Shown here piece by piece: positions 21,513 through 60,061 of a stretch of DNA of 64,000 nucleotides (its first letter is position 1; each line of letters begins with the position of its first letter). The stretch is from contig QYRS01000002.1 in NCBI GenBank assembly GCA_006503535.1, positions 4,092,001 to 4,156,000 of the forward strand, in the 5' to 3' direction. Both the position numbers and the translations under genes were made by a program. This stretch comes from Arthrinium phaeospermum (lineage: Eukaryota > Ascomycota > Sordariomycetes > Amphisphaeriales > Apiosporaceae). Below the pieces are notes generated by a model. That model had not been told where the DNA came from and searched no databases. It saw only the letters and a list, made by a program, of their open reading frames with translations.

Positions 21513-24500
21513 ATGGCTCTGAATCTGCCCCAGGGCGGCAGCGGAGGGGCCCATACCCAGCCTTCGTTGCCCTCGCTGCCGGCCCATCTGCAGTCAGACA
21601 CCCATATCACAGCACACTTGGCCAGTCGTTTCCATGTGTCTGTACCGACAGCACGACTCGCTTCTCATGCTATAGTCTCGCTCAACACCTACACGTCCTC
21701 GACCAAGGGACTCGATGGCGGCAAAGAGGGCAGTGCCATGGCTGCCGCCGAGGACATGGCAGACCGGGCCTTCATTCGACTGGGACACCGCTCTGAAAAC
21801 CAGGCTATTCTCTTCCTGTACGTCATATCAACACGACAAAAAATTGCAAATCATAGAATATCTGCTGACTGCCCCCTAGTGGTGAATCGGGTTCTGGAAA
21901 GACCACCATCCGTGCCCATATCTTGACAGCACTGCTGAACAAATCCTCGACTCCTCTCTCTACGAAGGTCTCCCTGGCCGCCTACGTGTTCGACTCGCTC
22001 ACTACCACAAAGACAGCCACCACCCCGACTGCTTCCAAGGCTGGACTTTTCTACGAACTCCAGTACGATACCGCGTCGACTACGAATCCCTTGTTGATTG
22101 GTGGAAAGCTGCTGGACCATCGTCTGGAGAGAAGCAGAATTGCCGATGTCCCCACTGGCGAGCGCAACTTCCACGTTCTCTACTATCTCCTGGCCGGAAC
22201 GAGTGAGGCTGAAAAGACCCATCTCGGTATCGACACCCCCAGAGACGCTGCGGGACAACGCAGGTGGAAATACCTGGGTCATCCCACGCAACTCAAAGTT
22301 GGCATCAACGATGTGGAAGGATTCCAGCTCTTCAAGACTGCTCTACGCAAGCTGGAGTTTCCCAGGAGCGAGATTGCCGAGATCTGCCAGATTTTGGCCT
22401 GTATCTTGCACATCGGCCAGCTTGAATTCGAGACCACCTCGAGCACAACCGCCACGGGAGATGACAGTGGTGGCTTCTCCCACGAGGGTGGTCAAATGGT
22501 GACGGCCGTCAAGAATAAGGATGTCTTGGGCATCATTGCAGCCTTTTTGGGTGTCAGCGCGCCAGATCTTCAGACGACAATGGGCTACAAGACCAAGATG
22601 ATCCATCGCGAGAGGGTGACGGTCATGTTGGATCCCAACGGAGCCCGCGCCAATGCCGATGAGCTGGCGCGTACGCTCTACTCTCTGATGGTCGCTTATG
22701 TCATTGAAACCATCAACCAGAAGATTTGCGCCCCTGAAGAGTCCATCTCCAACACAGTCTCCATTGTTGATTTCCCTGGCTTTGCCCAACAGTCTTCAAC
22801 TGGCTCGGCTCTTGACCAGCTTCTCAACAATGCTGCATGCGAGTCCCTGTACAACCAGGCCCTCCAAAACTTCTTCGATCGCAAGGCCGACTTGCTGGAG
22901 ACGGAAGAAGTGACGGTTGCCGCCACGAGCTACTTTGACAACTCCGATGCCGTCAAGGGTCTGCTCAAGCCAGCAAACGGTCTGCTCAGCATTCTGGATG
23001 ATCAGACCCGCCGACACCGTACCGACATGCAGCTTCTTGAGAGCTTCCGCAAGCGATTCGAGGGCAAGAACCCCTCCGTCACTGTGAGCTCAGCTCAGGC
23101 CAAACTGCCTGGTAGCAACTTCTTCACCGAGAACACTGCGGCCACATTCACCGTCCGTCACTTCGCCGGAGAGGTCGAGTATCCGATCAAGGGTCTCGTA
23201 GAGGAGAATGGTGAGATCATCTCTGGTGACTTGATGAATCTCATCAACTCGTCCAAGAGCGAGTTCGTGGCGCGTTTGTTTGGCCAGGAGGCTCTTCAAG
23301 CCGTTATGCACCCACAAGAGCGTACCACTGTCATGCAGGCATCGGTCAGTTCCAAGCCTATGCGTGCTCCGAGCGTGATGTCCCGCAAGACGGGCAGGAC
23401 GGGGCGCTCCGCCCGCGTGACCCGCCAAGACTCTGTGGAAGAGTACGGCAGTGAAGAGGGCGCTCGCCCGGAGACCAGGGGCGGCGAACCAAGGAAACCG
23501 AGCCGTGTCTCGGAACAAGGGGCTTCGGGTCAGTTCCTGGCCTCCCTGGACAACGTGAGGCAGTCCATCACGGCGCCCAACACCAATACGTATTTCGTGT
23601 TCTGCTTGAAGCCAAACGATCGACGCATCGCCAACCAGTTTGACAGCAAATGCGTCCGAACTCAAGTGCAAACGTTTGGCATCGCTGAAATCAGCCAACG
23701 TCTACGAGCTGCCGACTTCAGTCTATTCTTGCCCTTCGGCGAGTTCCTGGGGCTCGCAGACGCCGATACCATCCTCGTTGGAAGCGAGCGCGAGAAGACG
23801 GAGATGTCAGTCCACGATCGACAGTGGCCTAGCAATGAAGTCTTGATTGGCTCGACCGGTGTGTTCCTCAGCGAGCGTTGCTGGATGGAAATCGCACAGC
23901 TCGGGGACGGTGTATCAGCATCCGGCCGCGGCTATCCCTCGGAAGGCGGCGACGGCATTACGCCGTCTCCGGGAGATCCTTTCCTTACCTCCAAGGAGCG
24001 ACTTCTGCACTCTGTGGGCAACACCCCGCAGTTCAACGACAAGAGCAGAACCGGTTACTTCGGCGCCGCAGATGCCGATACCCGCTCGGAGGCGGGTGTA
24101 TCCGCTTTCGGCGGCGGCGACATGTTCAAGAACCTCGATACCCGAGAGCAGATGGCGGAGCGAGGTAACGAGAAGTCTCTGGTCGAGGTTGAGGAATACA
24201 AAGACAGCCCATCGCGTAAGCGCTGGGTCTTTACCACTTATGCCTTGACCTGGTTCATCCCGGAGTTCTTGATCAGATGGTGCGGTATGCCTCGCAAGGA
24301 TGTCCGCATGGCCTGGAGAGAAAAGCTGGCGATCAACATGATGATCTGGCTCAGCTGTCTCATCGCTGCCTTCTTCATCATCGTCTTCCCTATGTTGATC
24401 TGTCCCAAACAGAACGTATACAGCCCGGACGAACTGACCTCGTACAACGGTAAGGATGGGGCTGCCGCCTATGTCGCTATTCGCGGACAAGTCTTTGATC

Positions 24501-27272
24501 TCGGCGCCTTCTCTCAACATCACTACCCGCCCTTCGTTACGGACAAGGCCCTAAAGAAGTACGCTGGTCTTGATGCCACCGGCATTTTCCCCGTTCAAGT
24601 CTCGGCTCTGTGCCAAGGAGTCAATGGCCAGATCGACCCTGCTGTGCAACTGGATTACAAGACCGTTAACCAGTCTGGCCAAAACGACATCCCTGACTTG
24701 ACTCAAGACTTCAACTGGAAATACCATGACTTCCGCTACAGCTCAGATCTCTACCAGCCCGACTGGTTCTACGAGAAGATGGTCATCCTCAAGTCGAACT
24801 GGAAGAAGGGTAACGTCGGCTACTCTCCCAAGTACGTGGGAACTCTGGCAGACAAGAAACAGCTCATGGCAATGCTCAACGGTCGTGTCTACGACTTGAC
24901 CAAGTATGACATGGGCGGTCGAACCGTTGCCGGTCCTAAGGGGAAGGACCTGCCGACAGATCCCAAGGTCACCGACTTCATGTACCCCCTTGTGGTTGAT
25001 CTCTTCCGAGGAAGATCAGGACAAGACATTACCAAGGCCTGGGATGCTTTGAACATGGACCTGGGAATGCGCCAGCGGATGCAACTGTGTCTCGACAACC
25101 TCTTCTACGTGGGAGATGTCGATACCAGAAACTCGATCCGCTGCCAGTTTGCCGACTACCTCATTCTCGCTGTCTCCATCATGCTGTGTACCATCATTGG
25201 TTTCAAGTTCTTGGCCGCCTTGCAATTCGGTGGCAAGAACATCCCGGAAGACCTGGACAAGTTCGTCATGTGCCAGATTCCTGCCTATACCGAAGACGAA
25301 GAGTCGCTCCGCCGTGCCATCGATTCTGCTGCCCGTATGAAGTACGACGATAAGCGCAAGCTCATTGTCGTTATCTGTGACGGTATGATTATCGGTCAGG
25401 GTAACGATCGTCCCACCCCTCGCATCGTGCTCGATATTCTTGGCGTCTCCGAGACGGTCGACCCCGAGCCTCTCAGCTTCGAATCTCTCGGTGAAGGTCT
25501 CAAACAGCACAACATGGGCAAGGTCTACTCTGGTCTGTACGAGGTTCAAGGTCACATCGTGCCCTTCCTCGTTGTCGTCAAGGTCGGTAAGCCGTCCGAG
25601 GTCTCGCGTCCTGGAAACCGTGGTAAGCGAGACTCGCAGATGGTCATCATGCGTTTCCTCAACCGCGTCCACTACAACCTTGCCATGAGCCCCTTGGAGC
25701 TGGAGATGTACCACCAAATCCGCAATATTATCGGCGTCAATCCAACGTTCTACGAGTTCTTGTTCGGAATCGACGCCGATACGGTGGTCGCCGCCGACTC
25801 GGCAAGCCGCATGGTTTCTGCGTTCTTGGATGACACGAGACTGCTCGCCTGCTGCGGTGAAACAGCCCTTACCAACGCCAAGTCCTCGTTCGTTACCATG
25901 ATTCAAGTGTACGAATACTACATTTCTCACAACTTGGCCAAGGCCTTTGAGAGTTTGTTCGGCAGTGTCACCTGTTTGCCCGGTTGTTTCTCCATGTACC
26001 GCATCCGTGCCGCCGAGAGCGGAAAGCCGCTGTTTGTGAGCAAGGAGGTCGTGGAAGCCTACTCTACCATCCGTGTCGATACGCTGCACATGAAGAACTT
26101 GCTGCATCTCGGTGAGGATCGATACCTTACCACGCTGCTCCTCAAGTACCACGGCAAGTACAAGACCAAGTACATTTTCGCTGCCCACGCTTGGACTGTC
26201 GCCCCCGATTCTTGGGCCGTCTTCTTGTCTCAACGTCGACGATGGATTAACTCGACGGTGCACAACCTGATGGAACTGATCCCTCTGGGTGAGCTGTGCG
26301 GTTTCTGCTGCTTCAGTATGCGTTTCATCGTTTTCGTCGACTTGCTTTCCACCATTGTCCAGCCAGTCACCATCGCTTACATCGTCTACCTGATCGTCCT
26401 CGTCGTCACCAAGGCTACTGTCATTCCGGTCACGGCCTTCGTCATGCTGGGTGCCATTTACGGTCTGCAAGCCATTATCTTCATCATGCGCCGCAAGTGG
26501 GAGATGATCGGATGGATGATCCTCTACGTCATTGCCGTGCCTGTATTCTCGTTCGCGCTGCCCCTGTATGCCTTCTGGCACATGGACGATTTCTCGTGGG
26601 GTAACACTCGTGTGGTCACGGGTGAGCAGGGTAAGAAGGTTGTCGTCACCGACGAGGGCAAGTTCGACCCGGCCTCTATCCCGCGTAAGAAGTGGGAGGA
26701 GTACCAGGCCGAGCTCTGGGATGCCCAGACTGCCCGCGACGACGCGCGCTCCGAGATCTCGGGCTACAGCTACGCCACCAAGCACAACGCCATGCCCATG
26801 TCTGAGTATGGCGGTGGCGGTAGCCACAACGGCTCTTCGTACGGCCAGATCCCGCCCTACGGTGCTGGTGGCCTGGGTGCCGGTCTCGGCGGAGGCCACA
26901 TGTCTCGCATGTCGCTGGCCCCTTCGGAGATGATGGGCGGCGCCGGCAACCGCATGAGCCAGTTTGGCGGATCCCAGTTCCTCGGCAACCAGGAGATGGA
27001 GATGTCGAATCTGTCGGGCCTGCCTAGCGACGACGCGCTCCTGGCCGAGATCCGCGAGATCCTGCGGACGGCCGACCTGATGTCAGTCACCAAGAAGGGC
27101 ATCAAGCAGGAGCTGGAGAGGCGGTTCGGTATGCCGCTCGACGCGAGGAGGGCATATATCAACAGCGGTAAGTCTTTTTCCCTCCACTCGCTTGCCACGA
27201 ACATTCTGAAAAGCTCTTTACTAACTTTTGCGTTCAATAGCTACTGAGGCGTTGTTGTCGGGTCAACTGTAG
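21513..27272 (+). CDS. csmA: Class V chitin synthase with myosin motor-like domain
   Basis: A polarised-growth chitin synthase of hyphal tips and septa. Exons are 21513-21817, 21880-27167 and 27241-27272 (introns GTACGT...CCTAG and GTAAGT...AATAG), giving 1874 residues with no frameshift. The myosin head keeps the P-loop GESGSGKTT at about residue 103 and switch-II-like VDFPGF at about 400. The switch-I position is unusual (TPTASKAGL). Membrane segments (about 885-930), a cytochrome b5-like domain (about 970) and the GT2 chitin synthase core follow: DADT about 1400, GEDRYLT about 1514, QRRRWINST about 1552. Further membrane helices, a Gly/Ser-rich tail and a DEK-C domain (about 1815-1865) end in [10 protein letters not shown]. 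Actin binding through the head is known for this class. Its neighbour is the class VII partner. Confidence 0.96.
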
Positions 27273-47990: not shown

Positions 47991-50844
47991 ATGTCGGACG
48001 AGGATGCAGCCGACGTCTTCGCAATACCGGACTTCTGGAGGGCGTCGCAATGGGTAGACCTATCTCAAAACTCCCAGAGCGAGTTCTTTGCATCCGGCGC
48101 ACAACCACAAGTATTGCCTGATTGGGCGCGCGAAGGCCTTGAGCCAGCCCAATTCAAGTCCGATGAGTTCTTCAGCATTCCCTCTGCCCTGGAGGGTCTG
48201 CCCGACTTCAGTGGCTGGGAACAAAACAAACCCGACGCACACTTGGAGGAAGAAGACTATGAGAAGGATAGCCTATCCAATGTCGACTTTTTCAGCGATG
48301 CCTGGGTAGAAACGAGGGAGTTTGCATTGCCACGTCCCGCATTTAAGACGTGGGATGGCTTCGCCCCAACAGAGATACCCCGTTGGAGCCCCTTTTTCTC
48401 TCGGAGGCTGGGCCTGCCACCTACGATGCCGCATTGCAGACGGCCAAAGATCCATTGCAAATCAACAACAGCACTTCCAATCTCGTTGAGACCAACCCCT
48501 ATGCGGCATCACTGCTGGCCCTCCTCTTGGGAGGGCGTCCATTTTCTTCAGCTGGGATGAACAGAAATCGTCATTCATCCCGGAGCTTGACAAAATCCGG
48601 GTCTCGGGGTATTCTGTCCAAGTTCTGGGAGGTCTCCAAGAACAATGCTTACAATGCGCCAATATTTCACGCTACTTTTCCATGTTTGTCCAGATCACCT
48701 TCCGGACTCACCCCTCTCCAGTAAGAGTAGCATTGGCCAAAGCCATTGACGGCCTTTTGCTCGCTATCCAGGCGAAGTTGGGAATCCACGCCAGGGACAT
48801 CCAGTCCTTATTACAACTTCAGTCGCTGGTTCAGCCGGTGCATAGTCTCCTGACATACTTCAAATCGCTCGTGTCCCGGCTGAATAAGACAAGGAAGGAC
48901 GAACACTTACTGTCCAGATTATTCGAAGAGACGCAAGCACTAGAATACGGCGATGACCTCCTGAGCGAGATCATGCGAGAGATCCTGCGCAGGGTTACGG
49001 AGCCTTGGACCGATTTCGCACAAAAGTGGATTGGCGTCAAACCTGAAGGCGGCAACCCTATGACCAAGAGTGGCCCAGGGAAGAGCTTTGTTAAGGTCGA
49101 GAACATGCCATTCGTGGACGATTTTGGTCAGATGAACGAGGCATCCGACTACGTCCTCGACGACGATCGTATGCCGGCGTTCGTTCCTCCCGAAGTTGGT
49201 CGCAAACTGTTTGAAACCGGGAGAACACTGAGGCTCTTGCGGACTCACCACCCAGATCATCCGCTGTGCTCTGCAGAACCCGTCCAATCCATAAAAGTTC
49301 CAGAGCTACAATGGCACTATGACTGGAAATCTATAGAGGCACTGCAGGAGGATGTGCAGGCGTATGAGACCAGTCTCGTTAAGGTAATTCGTTCAGGTGG
49401 ACAAGGCGATATCACTGCCCGGCTTCCTTCTGGTTCAGCCTATGAGCTACAGTTCTTCGGCGGAGAGGAACAGCAGCTTAAAAATCGTCTCTTGGCTTCA
49501 ATGAAGCAGATGAGTATGCCTTTTCAACCCACGAGCGAGACAGATCACCTATCACAGCTTCTCCACGAACGCCTGTTTGACGCAGTACGTCTTCCAGAGG
49601 GCTCAGGGGTTGCTTTATCACCACACTGGTCGCTCTTACCTCTGCTGTCATTCGGCCCACTAGTAGAGGCACAGGCACGATTGGTGAACAGAGAGTACAT
49701 GAGTCTCCTGTTCAAGTCGCATAATCTTCGAGAACACATTCGTCTGCACAAGGAGTTCCATTTGCTCGGGAATGGGCTCTTCTGCAGCCGACTCTCGCAC
49801 GCGCTTTTCGATCCCAACCTGGAGACGGCCGAACGACAGGCGGGAGTTGCGCGGGGTGGCGGCGTGATGGGTCTACGCCTTGGGGGCCGAGACAATTGGC
49901 CACCTGCAAGTTCGGAATTGCGCCTGGCCTTGATGGGGCTTTTGTCCGAAAGCTACTCTTCCCGTCCCAAACAAAGACCGTCGGCAAGAGAAGGCCACGA
50001 AATGCCGGGCGACCTGAGCTTTGCGGTCCGCGATCTCTCGGATGAAGAGATTGAAAAGTGCATGAACCCAGACTCCCTCGAGGCATTGGACTTTCTCCGG
50101 CTTTCCTACAAACCCCCAGCACCACTGGCGCCTATTTTCACCCCCGTCATCTTGCTCAAGTACGACAGGATCTTCAAGCTTCTTTTACGAGTTTTGCGGC
50201 TACTTTACATCACGAGCGAGCTATTTCGCGACACCAACTTGCGGACTTTGCAACGGTCTGGTACGACCAACGCATCCCTCCGCTTCCGTATCGAAGCGCA
50301 GCATCTCGTGGCGAGCGTCGTAGCGTACTTTTTCGATACGGGCATCAATCTCCGTTGGAAGTCGTTTCAAGAATGGCTGGGCCAGGTCGAGAGGAACCTC
50401 CGTGATCGCAACGCAGGTCACATCATTAGTCCAGAGGAGCTGCGCGAGCACCACGAGGAGGTCCTGGACGAAATCATGCATACGCTTTTCTTGCGAAAAC
50501 GCCAGCAGCCGGTGCTCAAACTGCTCGAGGACATATTCGCTCTCATTCTTACCTTTGCCAAGCGCGCTCACCAGCTGGCTTCGGGCAAGGCGCGACAGGG
50601 AGCAGACGAGCCGACAGAGGTGCAGCTATACAACGCCTTTAAGAAGAAGGTCGATGTATTCATCACTGTTTGCCGCGGGATGACTGAGAAGGGAGGGGCA
50701 GCTGCTATATCATCAAAGATCGGGGTGACGGTTGACGAGGGAAAGGGGCCAGCCGCAAAAGAGGAAAGCACGGTAGATCAGTTACTGCTGCAGCTGGAGA
50801 TGTCAGGCTACTATGGGGGAGTCAAGAATATGAGGTTTCTATAG
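47991..50844 (+). CDS. Gamma-tubulin complex component, GCP5/GCP6-like
   Basis: A Spc97/Spc98-family protein of the gamma-tubulin ring complex, acting in microtubule nucleation. ATG 47991 begins MSDEDAADVFAIPDFWRAS. The N-terminal grip region includes the restored segment FFSWDEQKSSFIPELDKIRVSG and SRYFSMFVQITFRTHPSPV. The C-terminal grip region includes ILLKYDRIFKLLLRVLRLL, RHEM-equivalent RFRIEAQHLVASVVAYF and HHEEVLDEIMHTLFLRKRQQ. With about 951 restored residues and no introns, it fits fungal GCP6 (Alp16) or GCP5 better than GCP2/3. Two missing bases break the N-terminal third, near 48385 and in the GGGAGGG stretch near 48530-48536. The final 720 codons are open. Confidence 0.85.
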
Positions 50845-57437: not shown

Positions 57438-58461
57438 TCAGATGCCAGCCATTTCAACTGCCGGCTCCTGTAGTGGTGGGCAGGGCAGCTCTGTGACCAG
57501 GGCCGCCAAATGGCCAGGAACCGGTGCCTCCACGGCGCAAGGGGGGAAACTCGCCAAATGCGGTGCACCATAAATACCAGCCCGGACTCCGGGCGTCTGG
57601 CCGGAATCAGAGAACGGGCGTGGTGACTGCGCCGCCTCCTTGGGGGCGTTTCTGTGCGCCGCCAGGGTCTCGTTGAAGTCGCGCCTGGCAACACTACCCA
57701 TCTTTAGGGTCGCATAGTCCCGGGTCTCGTTATCCTTGAATATGATCGGACCTTCTGGTGCTCTGTTTTGGCTGCATCTCTCAACAACGGCGTCGTTGCC
57801 AATATCCACCAGCGCGTTGTACCCGATCTTGTTGCCAACTATCTCGAATCTGGCTTGGCGTCGCGGTTGGCTTGACTTAGCCGTGTCCCTCGAGAGCCCC
57901 TGAACCGGGCAATCTTCCTGCCCAGTGTCCTGTCTGGTATTTCAGCTTGTGTATCCAGAGGTTCTGCAGATATGCTATTGGTTGTCTCACCGGACTCTTC
58001 GGGCTTTCCACACTATCGATCCTGAGGTGCTTGTATGCCTGCCCCGTCCCCACCTCGAGACACGCCCTCACATCACGACTGAGCATACATGATATGTGGA
58101 AATGCAGCAGTTCGCGCGTGGCATACAATGCCCGGAAAGCCTCCGCTAGCGCTCGGTGCCGTGTGATGGCGGAAACGACCCTGTGCAGCAAAGACGACGA
58201 CGTGCCTTGGAGCAGCTGCAGAATCTTCTGCGCCATGGTGTCGACCCTCCCGAAGAGCTCGAGGAACTCGCGGGTGTAGCAATCCTTCTCGGTCGAGATC
58301 CGGCGGACCAGGAGAAGCAGGTGGCGGACGTTGGTCTCTTCGTTTTTGTAAATCACGGGGCCGCGGCTGATGTCCCTGATGAGTCGGATCAGCGTCATGG
58401 TCACCGTCCCTCCGAAATCCACCAGTTGCCCAATGCTGGCGGCCGCCGAGACGCCGTCCAT
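57438..58461 (-). CDS. HELL/HeLo-like domain protein with HET-s-like amyloid repeats
   Basis: Exon 1 is 58461-57991, intron 57990-57918 (GTGAGA...GGGCAG, 73 bases), exon 2 57917-57438; 316 residues, no frameshift needed. Residues 1-135 are helical, with a hydrophobic N-terminus (MDGVSAAASIGQLVDFGGTV) and LLLLVRRISTEKDCYTREF, resembling the HELL/Fungal_N class related to HeLo and MLKL-type membrane-disrupting domains. After a polar linker come two aligned 19-mers, FEIVGNKIGYNALVDIGND (181-199) and IIFKDNETRDYATLKMGSV (215-233), sharing hydrophobic-x-x-N-x5-A-x-[VL]-x-[IM]-G with 34-residue spacing. Known HET-s repeats are 36 apart. This is the architecture of amyloid-controlled cell-death effectors such as HELLF. 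A Pro-rich 80-residue tail follows, which is unusual. The neighbour at 59188 carries a matching motif. Confidence 0.68.
57690..57746 (-). other. Putative amyloid pseudo-repeat R2
   Basis: Encodes residues 215-233 of the HELL-domain protein, IIFKDNETRDYATLKMGSV. It aligns without gaps to R1: Asn220, Ala226, Leu228, Met230 and Gly231 match the key positions, 34 residues downstream. Confidence 0.6.
57792..57848 (-). other. Putative amyloid pseudo-repeat R1
   Basis: Encodes residues 181-199 of the HELL-domain protein, FEIVGNKIGYNALVDIGND. It has Asn186, Ala192, Val194, Ile196 and Gly197 at the positions shared with R2 and with the neighbour's N-terminal motif. Confidence 0.6.
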
Positions 58462-59187
58462 CGGCAGTAGGCTGTCCTTTCCGTAATCCTGTGTGTGGTA
58501 GGGTATACAAGTTGGGGGTCGAAAGGCGTGGGTGTGGCGGTCAAGTCACGAGACCACTCATTAATGCCATGGGCGCAGTGAAGCCAGAGCAGAGAGGTTT
58601 GTTCAGCTGCCAGGGGAAAACGAGTGAATGTCAAGGATCTTGCCGGGCTGAGGTTTTGAGCTGGTATTTACAAGAACTTGGTTGCCAGCGTGCAATGTCC
58701 CCTCGCTTTCCTACAAGATTATGGGGGCGTCGAGAGTGGCAATACACTGAATGGCAGCATCCTTTATGCAACTTGCTGAGACGAACCGTCGCTATAAGTG
58801 TTATGTTATACGCATATATTATGTAAGTCATATATCTCCCAGCCAGTCACCTGAAGGGGGCCGTATGCAGACTTCTATTTTGATGCTGGGGTCCAACAGG
58901 GGGCTGAGCCTCAATCCCTCATCCGCCTCTGCAACATTGAATGATGACCGGTTTTGTGTATATTGTGTGGGAGTCTGAGTAAGGGGGCTTGGAGATGTTT
59001 AGTTATCGGTGCCCTCAGCGCAACATCATATGGACATTTTTCTTCCATCTTCGACCCCCGAGCCAAAAATATGTTGCCGCTGCATTCCTATCCAGCTCGG
59101 TGCTGAGTGTACCGCGTTCAGACTCCTTTCCACTTCTTATTGTTGGCTTATGTAAATCTTGAAGTTCTATAGGGAAAGTCACAGGCT
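58462..59187. promoter_or_regulatory. Shared divergent promoter region of the amyloid-motif gene pair
   Basis: A 726-base spacer between the two divergent starts (58461 minus, 59188 plus). The head-to-head layout would permit co-regulation, as expected for a sensor-effector pair. No specific binding site was recognised. Confidence 0.5.
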
Positions 59188-60061
59188 ATGTTACCAGAGC
59201 CTGCGGAGCGAAACCACGTTGACGGGAATCAACTGGCAGCACACTCGCAGATGAGGATCGGGGACACGATCACCAACATTTACCACCTCTCGCATGGACG
59301 CAAGTCGTATATCAGAGCCCACGCGGCTTTGCACCAGGAGAAGCCACGGCAATACCAGAAGAAACAGGTGTGGTGTGTTGTGGTTGGGGCGGTTTTTCTT
59401 GTCGCGGGGATGACAGTAGCCATCGCTCTGCCTCTCGTCCGTTCATCGCAGGTCAGTCTACATCCGTCAACCGCGCCAGAATATTTCTCAGATGCTGTTC
59501 CATTTGCGGTGTAAATGTATGGTGCTGTAAACAACTGACGGTGAATTTCAGTCCCCATCAAACTCGACGCCTGCCGTGTCGTCAACCATGGCACCCAACT
59601 CGCTAGCTGGATTTCCCACCACCGCCCCATCCAATCCTCTTCCCACATCGCCCAGCAGCACGATAGTCGGCCAACCAACTCCCTCGCCCACAGCAGTAGG
59701 CACGCCTATCACTACACACACGGGCGGCGGCAGACATATCACGTCCGCAACCGACGACCGCGGCCAGCTGATCAGGGGTCTCGCGCCCGGTGAGAAATGC
59801 ACAGCCGACTCGGAATGTCTTGCGCCCAACTTCTGCTACACCGAGACGCACTCGCCGGCATCGACGACTTGCTGCGGGCCCGGCAACTGGGGCTGCCCGG
59901 GGGCCTCGTGCGGGAGCCACGACGACTGTCTCGATCCCTTTCCCTGCCACACGCCGGCGCCCGGCAGCGGCGCCACCTGCTGCGGTTACCCGCCGTGGAC
60001 CGTGTACCGGGGTGCTAGTTGCTGGTCTACGTACCCCGCGACGATCACAAAGGCTGTTTAG
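59188..60061 (+). CDS. Single-pass membrane protein: cytosolic amyloid motif, Cys-rich ectodomain
   Basis: Exon 1 is 59188-59451, intron 59452-59551 (GTCAGT...TTTCAG), exon 2 59552-60061; 257 intact residues. Residues 9-27 (NHVDGNQLAAHSQMRIGDT) align gaplessly with both 19-mers of the divergent neighbour: Asn14, Ser20, Met22, Ile24, Gly25. A Lys/Arg/Gln-rich segment precedes one transmembrane helix (about 61-84, VWCVVVGAVFLVAGMTVAIA), so by the positive-inside rule the motif faces the cytosol. Outside lie a Ser/Thr/Pro stalk (about 89-160) and two tandem modules G-x2-C-x5-C-x5-C-x10/11-CCG (168-201 and 205-237), 12 Cys in all counting one between the modules and one after. There is no signal peptide, as expected for N-in topology. 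I know no named family; a cell-surface sensor is inference. Confidence 0.7.
59212..59268 (+). other. Putative amyloid motif R0 in the membrane protein
   Basis: Encodes residues 9-27, NHVDGNQLAAHSQMRIGDT, matching R1 and R2 of the adjacent HELL protein at the hydrophobic minus-3, Asn, plus-8, plus-10 and Gly plus-11 positions. It has Ser where R1/R2 have Ala. Confidence 0.55.

Follow-up and report, generated by a model that had tools for sequence, protein, structure and literature searches.

The window analysed here is a 64,000-nt stretch of contig QYRS01000002.1 from the ascomycete Arthrinium phaeospermum (assembly GCA_006503535.1; 48.4 Mb in 19 contigs), and it contains two divergently transcribed genes that form a candidate amyloid-signalling pair: an effector and a putative membrane receptor that share a short sequence motif. 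The effector gene (58461-57438, minus strand) encodes a predicted protein of 320 residues and, in the model built from its open reading frames (ORFs) and splice sites, has a single intron (57990-57930, GTGAGA...CAG). Exon 1 (57991..58461) covers residues 1 to 157, of which about residues 1 to 140 (58042-58461) form a putative HeLo-like (HELL) domain related to that of a paralogue on another contig, C9. Exon 2 (57438..57929), defined by the gene model and by aligned relatives, covers residues 158 to 320 and bears two 21-residue motifs. The first, R1 (57792..57854, residues 183-203), has a Gly at position 19, and the second, R2 (57690..57752, residues 217-237), follows it after a loop of 13 residues. 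A divergent intergenic (promoter) region of 726 bp between the two ATGs (58462..59187) is common to both genes. The receptor gene (59188-60061, plus strand) encodes a predicted protein of 257 residues and also has one predicted intron (59452-59551). Its exon 1 (59188..59451, residues 1-88) encodes a putative cytosolic tail with a single 21-residue motif, R0 (59206..59268, residues 7-27), followed by a predicted transmembrane helix (59377..59439, residues 64-84), and is conserved in the Apiospora arundinis relatives P0003 and P0004. Exon 2 (59552..60061) encodes a Ser/Thr/Pro-rich stalk and an ectodomain with 12 Cys (residues 168-245, 59789-60022). The splice sites of both genes were picked among several in-frame candidates and are hence predicted. 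The coordinates, head-to-head layout and 726-base gap given in an earlier note on this DNA are correct by these gene models.

The link between the two proteins is the motif. It had been claimed in the earlier note that two 19-residue repeats of the effector follow one pattern, and that a third gapless copy sits at the N-terminus of the receptor. Two repeats are indeed present, but 21 residues is the better length for them, which puts the Gly at position 19 in line with the published numbering of HET-s-related amyloid motifs (HRAMs). The pattern itself has exactly three matches among the 80,529 residues of six-frame ORFs of at least 40 codons in the window, and all three fall within the two genes. 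Shuffling of receptor residues 1 to 60 produces it 9 times in 200,000, and shuffling of the whole receptor 6 times in 20,000. The count of three was therefore right, but the pattern is too strict for the family: among eight effector relatives, both repeats of P0006 and one repeat of P0007 carry it and the other six have none. It is present in the two receptor relatives that possess an N-terminus (P0003 and P0004). As the pattern was in addition derived post hoc from the copies, an effector-only profile was built as an independent test. This profile has 21 columns and was made from the 14 R1/R2 repeats of seven of the nine effectors (the window protein and P0006 to P0013, with P0010 and P0012 left out), with zero receptor sequence. 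On the window receptor it places R0 first at -0.7 bits against -18.6 for the next position, a margin of 18 bits that bears out the third copy, and on the A. arundinis receptor P0004 it chooses the same place (+5.4 versus -11.1). Ranked among 187,727 background positions, taken from the window and the other retrieved loci minus L002, L003, L005 and L006 (with some overlap among those that were kept), R0 comes 12th; the two repeats of the effector itself take the first two places, and nine other positions also precede it. Gapless pairwise comparison gives a score of 23 for R0 against R1 (p 0.0005, 4,000 shuffles) and a far weaker 4 for R0 against R2 (p 0.015); R1 and R2 of the window are barely alike (score -1, p 0.044). 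The R1 and R2 pairs of the A. arundinis effectors score 19 and 36 (p 0.0005 and 0.0002), and the A. arundinis R0 scores 32 against R2 of P0013 (p 0.0005). By these sequence statistics, the likeness of R0 to R1/R2 exceeds chance.

The identity of the effector's N-terminal domain comes through the C9 paralogue. A Pfam scan gave no hit for the window effector or for P0008, P0011 and P0013, and a PDB profile search with the effector gave none; the HeLo-like assignment is made because the effector is related to the paralogue, which itself matches PF17111 at E 3.9e-5 (23.6 bits, below the cut-off of 27.2). Alignment of the window effector family with this paralogue by hhalign scores 33.6, compared with at most 23.1 in 60 shuffles and at most 22.8 for 74 other window ORFs, at a probability that hhalign itself puts at only 31%. 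When compared with ten of the 18 proteins matching PF17111 in the genome, the window family aligned over the first 37 columns only (E 0.0019, probability 14.5%). A model of the A. marii relative P0006 has four helices over residues 3-142, with a low confidence score (predicted local distance difference test, pLDDT, of 41). The HELL/HeLo-like domain proposed in the earlier note thus has support by way of the paralogue but no direct Pfam match. The 18 PF17111 (HeLo-like) matches of the genome were taken at E up to 0.01 (L011-L028); seven are over the cut-off, and L022 is the C9 pair.

The receptor has one transmembrane helix (hydropathy 2.58 over 21 residues), with a net charge of +3 in the 15 residues before it and +1 in the 15 after; the corresponding values for P0004 are +5 and +1. 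An N-glycosylation sequon lies on the C-terminal side of the helix in the window, P0004 and C9 receptors. Hydropathy and flanking charge together predict an N-in/C-out, type II single-pass topology for the window receptor and P0004, so that R0 would share the cytosol with the effector. Two tandem copies of a six-Cys module, C-x5-C-x5-C-x10/11-CC-x6/12-C, make up the ectodomain, and its 12 Cys are invariant in all five aligned ectodomains. The best match in a Pfam scan of the receptor was CwsA at 14.2 bits, below the cut-off of 26.7. The nearest PDB structures to the ectodomain profile were Dickkopf-type Cys-rich domains, the three best hits being to Dickkopf 4 and 2, a likeness that is non-significant (best E 0.11). 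The proposal that the carrier of R0 is not an NOD-like receptor (NLR) but a single-pass membrane protein with a Cys-rich ectodomain is therefore sustained at the level of prediction.

A genome search with the window receptor turned up a single further gene (E 1.1e-9), which lies on contig C9, and the reciprocal search from that gene returned only the C9 and window receptor genes below E 0.8. The C9 receptor is predicted to have 207 residues and shares the architecture of the window receptor, with a short N-terminal tail, a transmembrane helix, a Ser/Thr/Pro stalk and 12 Cys; a GTCAGT donor lies just past the helix, as in the window pair, in a splice picked among ten in-frame candidates. At a distance of 794 bp lies a divergent neighbour gene for a predicted HeLo-like protein of 306 residues, in which an intron separates the HELL part from two repeats, again with a loop of 13 residues between them. 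Both members of the ectodomain family found in the genome are therefore head-to-head with a HELL-plus-repeats gene. With a profile of the two C9 repeats, the top-scoring position in the C9 receptor is residue 6, which is homologous to R0 and ranks 85th among the 187,727 background positions. In sequence terms the C9 pair strongly supports the pairing and moderately supports the motif. Identity between the pairs is about 21% across the effectors and 45% across the ectodomains, a divergence which suggests that the arrangement has been kept for long. The window and C9 pairs may descend from one ancestral pair, and so the two are not fully independent. A protein search with the C9 ectodomain region gave no candidate by which to trace the C9 pair in other species. 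About 3 kb from the C9 pair lies a HET-domain (heterokaryon incompatibility) gene (PF06985, E 1.7e-24; L007:2613-4289).

These results allow another explanation to be judged, namely that R0 resembles R1/R2 by chance or through generic composition and that the two genes lie side by side for some unconnected reason. In favour of it, the motif is short, its pattern is post hoc, R1 and R2 of the window hardly resemble each other by score, and R0 of the C9 receptor is weak, its rank coming from a two-row profile. The effector-only profile nevertheless selects R0, R0 is kept in A. arundinis, and the ectodomain genes of this genome, two of two, sit head-to-head with a HELL-plus-repeats gene, so that coincidence appears very improbable.

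Relatives of the two proteins number 13, of which the 10 with an organism name all belong to Apiospora. Consecutive locus tags in A. marii, PG985_005213 for the effector and PG985_005214 for the receptor, indicate that the two genes are adjacent there; this reading rests on the tags, since the effector and receptor clusters are listed with different longest contigs, of 9.8 and 7.9 Mb (two contigs for the effector, one for the receptor). Together with the second pair on C9, these tags support the conserved adjacency that the earlier note proposed to test. The A. arundinis proteins P0004 and P0012 come from equal-sized contigs, which fits adjacency but is no proof of it. Identity to the window effector in P0006 to P0009 is 18-20/21 for R1 and 15-19/21 for R2, and in P0006, P0007 and P0009 only the HELL domain is better conserved than the repeats. 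P0008 retains 18/21 residues of R1 and 16/21 of R2, compared with 15/42 in the linker, 3/13 in the loop and 37/74 in the tail. Between P0004 and the window receptor, identity is 14/21 in R0, 14/32 in the juxtamembrane segment, 16/25 in the transmembrane helix, 29/71 in the stalk and 61/89 in the ectodomain. P0011 and P0013, both from A. arundinis, agree at 117/144 positions of the HELL part but at only 6/21 of R1 and 5/21 of R2. The aligned sequences of some homologues thus differ far more in the motif region than in the killer domain, the former apparently diverging far faster. The contrast between P0011 and P0013 looks as if signalling specificity had been swapped or were fast-evolving.

Covariation of R0 with R1/R2 between species was rejected as a test, there being only two distinct R0 sequences of the window type, and the A. 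arundinis R0 also scores 27 (p 0.0002) with R1 of the window. The public models P0001, P0002, P0010 and P0012 look truncated or mis-spliced, which hides motifs from protein searches. P0001 and P0002 are uninformative on R0 because they start inside the stalk, which is exon 2 here. P0010 (218 residues), in which effector exon 2 seems to lack the repeats, was considered as a case of repeat loss and rejected, as its C-terminal end looks like a translation of that exon in another frame, and P0012 is missing part of R1 in what looks like a gene-model error.

In published HRAM systems the effector holds two 21-residue copies with Gly at position 19, spaced by a loop of 6-18 residues, and the partner holds a single one (PMC4518210). 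The two imperfect 21-residue repeats behind the HeLo-type domain of the window effector, with their 13-residue loop, have this layout. HRAMs borne by NLRs start mostly at residues 5-9 (PMC9815663), and R0, starting at receptor residue 7, lies inside that range. Gly occupies position 19 in 14 of 14 effector repeats, both R0 of the window type and both C9 repeats, a count that is partly by construction because the rows were anchored on that Gly; in a MAFFT alignment made without such anchoring, G201 of R1 and G235 of R2 are invariant in seven effectors. An HRAM is further defined by hydrophobic residues at positions 5, 8, 10, 16 and 18 and a preference for Lys/Arg at 15 (PMC4518210). Positions 5, 16 and 18 are hydrophobic in R0, R1 and R2 of the window, and position 10 is hydrophobic or, in R2, Thr.

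The same genome encodes a canonical HET-s protein on contig C1, which matches PF11558 at E 6.9e-17 and offers an internal comparison. A profile of its r1/r2 repeats ranks R0 of the window 6th among 102,935 positions. Above R0 stand HET-s r1 and r2, two unrelated frames of the window and, in 4th place, a motif beside the HET-s gene, in a frame just upstream of an ORF with a NACHT/NPHP3_N domain. On the assumption of a splice joining the two frames, this motif is presumably the r0 of that NLR, and as the motif of the HET-s neighbour it serves as a positive control for the r1/r2 profile. The NACHT/NPHP3_N ORF and the canonical HET-s gene are themselves head-to-head (L009:6345-8360). Profiles built by leaving out one group at a time agree in part: p is 6e-5 for R0 and 1e-4 for R1 of the window and 2e-4 for r1 of the genome's own HET-s, with weaker values for R2 of the window (0.002), HET-s r2 (0.012) and the C9 repeats (0.015 and 0.019), and the weakest, about 0.05, for R2 of P0011 and R1 of P0013.

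The interpretation that we favour, and hold to be somewhat better than an even bet, is that the pair is a two-gene cell-death module that resembles HET-S/NWD2 but has a type II membrane receptor where that system has its NLR. The plus-strand gene would encode an N-in, C-out receptor whose stalk and tandem six-Cys ectodomain lie outside the cell and whose tail, with R0, lies inside. Binding of a ligand to the ectodomain, or clustering of the ectodomain, would gather copies of R0, and the gathered R0 would fold into a β-solenoid amyloid that templates R1-R2, by analogy with NWD2 and HET-S. Conversion of R1-R2 would then release the HELL domain, which would damage the membrane and bring about the death of the hyphal compartment. 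The predicted gene structure and topology, the shared motif, the conserved adjacency and the second pair in the genome are read from the DNA, and the amyloid fold, the direction of templating, the ligand and cell death are inferred, like every step past sequence anatomy.

Several observations weigh against this module. Position 8 of the window motifs is Asn rather than a hydrophobic residue, and position 15 is Gln, Leu and Thr in R0, R1 and R2, not Lys/Arg. A scan with PF11558 found no match in the window pair and only the HET-s gene on C1; this profile misses 117 of 155 published double-repeat proteins (PMC4518210). An HRAM1 profile was made from r1 and r2 of the genome's own HET-s and the presumed NLR r0, and applied to six effectors (window, P0006, P0008, P0011, P0013 and C9) and three receptors (window, P0004 and C9). 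It chose R0 as the best position of the window receptor, yet only at p 0.05, did not choose R0 in the P0004 or C9 receptor, and did not select R1/R2 in register in any of the six effectors. In the reverse direction, the window-family profile gives the presumed NLR r0 a score of -27.7. The motifs of the C9 pair score badly with the window-family profile (-14.3, -16.7 and -22.5), His replaces the arch glycine at position 19 of the C9 R0, and the charges flanking the helix of the C9 receptor (0 ahead of it, +1 behind) point to no clear orientation. Repeat conservation is poor in A. arundinis, where P0011 shares 12/21 residues of R1 and 6/21 of R2 with the window effector against 95/139 in the HELL part, and P0013 shares 6/21, 4/21 and 94/139. 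R0 is no better kept in that species than the transmembrane helix or the ectodomain, and the spread of the relatives is narrow. The AlphaFold2 models, with mean pLDDT of 41 and 46, are too poor to reveal any β-solenoid. The HRAM profile match that the earlier note proposed as a check is thus missing for PF11558 and, in the effector repeats, for the HRAM1 profile built here. As judged by these sequence comparisons, the window motif is HRAM-like in layout and pattern but not a member of HRAM1, and it may represent a further HRAM subfamily.

The motif might instead be a genuine homotypic interaction motif of a non-amyloid kind, working through an ordinary fold or a short linear contact. The effector repeats have no match to canonical HET-s profiles, and they carry Asn at position 8, where HRAMs are usually hydrophobic. 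The layout, repeat number, spacing, Gly 19, hydrophobic residues at 5, 10, 16 and 18 (Thr at 10 in R2) and association with a HELL domain nevertheless mirror HRAM systems, and R0 ranks as high as 6th with the profile of the genome's own HET-s repeats. We consider a non-amyloid contact unlikely.

A divergent promoter and pairing suit a toxin and its guard as well as a receptor and its effector, so that the signal could run in either direction. The membrane protein could accordingly be an inhibitor or anchor, with R0 bound to R1/R2 and keeping the HELL effector in an inactive state at the membrane; engagement, cleavage or loss of the receptor would then release it. However, the single N-terminal copy activates in NWD2/HET-S (PMC4518210), and R0 sits where the motifs of NLR activators mostly sit (PMC9815663). 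Such a role is the least unlikely of the alternatives, though we would not expect it. A further arrangement has the true trigger in an NLR elsewhere in the genome, with the membrane protein as a second output of the same amyloid, recruited through R0; single NLRs clustered with one or more execution proteins have been described (PMC7889193). Genome searches with R0 (37 residues) and R1-R2 (60 residues) at E up to 10 returned only the pair itself, with queries so insensitive that the C9 pair was missed too. A scan of six window ORFs, which lie between 48.5 and 57.1 kb on the side of the effector, found no NLR domain, and a Cys-rich outside domain would be an odd output. A distant NLR as trigger thus seems improbable.

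Elsewhere in the window, a gene for a gamma-tubulin complex component lies at 48490-50841 (PF04130, E 1.1e-75). An ORF of 1,792 residues at 21869-27244 starts with a GESGSGKT P-loop and is a candidate myosin-motor chitin synthase. DNA repeats around the locus comprise only short families of a chance-like kind.

Published accounts of amyloid signalling in fungi present it as driven by NLRs, and the surveys considered here began either from HeLo-type proteins whose NLR neighbours were sought (PMC4518210) or from NLRs (PMC9815663). With surveys anchored in this way, a small membrane receptor would be easily missed. A literature search gave no fungal membrane receptor bearing such a motif among the matches listed, in a coverage outside which most subscription papers and bioRxiv preprints fall. 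Of the 155 HRAM effectors surveyed in 2015, 98 were next to an NLR gene and 57 were without an adjacent NLR (PMC4518210). If the module is real, surface amyloid receptors could account for some of these 57, and HRAM effectors with no NLR alongside are where else to look. An outside signal, whether from a neighbouring hypha, a bacterium or a host molecule, would be coupled directly to prion-like death through one membrane helix, and the trigger of amyloid cell death would become testable with small proteins.

Among known systems, HELLF/FNT1 and HELLP/PNT1 of Podospora likewise combine a HELL effector with an adjacent partner through a common amyloid motif, but their partner is an NLR and their motif is HRAM5 or PP (PMC7889193, PMC12881547). 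The HET-S/NWD2 system of P. anserina, like the HeLo/NLR pairs of HRAM1-5, shares with the window pair a HeLo-type effector, two C-terminal 21-residue repeats, Gly 19, a loop within range and an adjacent partner gene with one motif copy at the N-terminus (here R0 at residues 7-27, 726 bp away). In place of an NLR, however, the window pair has a partner predicted to be a type II membrane protein that spans the membrane once and bears a Cys-rich ectodomain, and the window motif is not matched by PF11558 and departs from theirs at positions 8 and 15. The insect receptor PGRP-LC has a single-pass type II topology. Its cytosolic part holds an amyloid-forming cRHIM common to the downstream protein Imd, and aggregation of the receptor is supposed to suffice for recruitment (PMC9496462). 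The window receptor would likewise carry, in its cytosolic part, a motif common to a downstream protein, a resemblance of function only, as PGRP-LC/Imd has an RHIM-type motif, a peptidoglycan-binding ectodomain and an NF-kB output and not a membrane-attacking effector. Whether fungi possess a class of receptors at the cell surface whose signal is passed on through templating of a HET-s-like amyloid is, in our judgement, evenly poised: in such a class an outside Cys-rich sensor would nucleate cytosolic R0 and convert a head-to-head HELL executioner, as a convergent counterpart of insect PGRP-LC/Imd.

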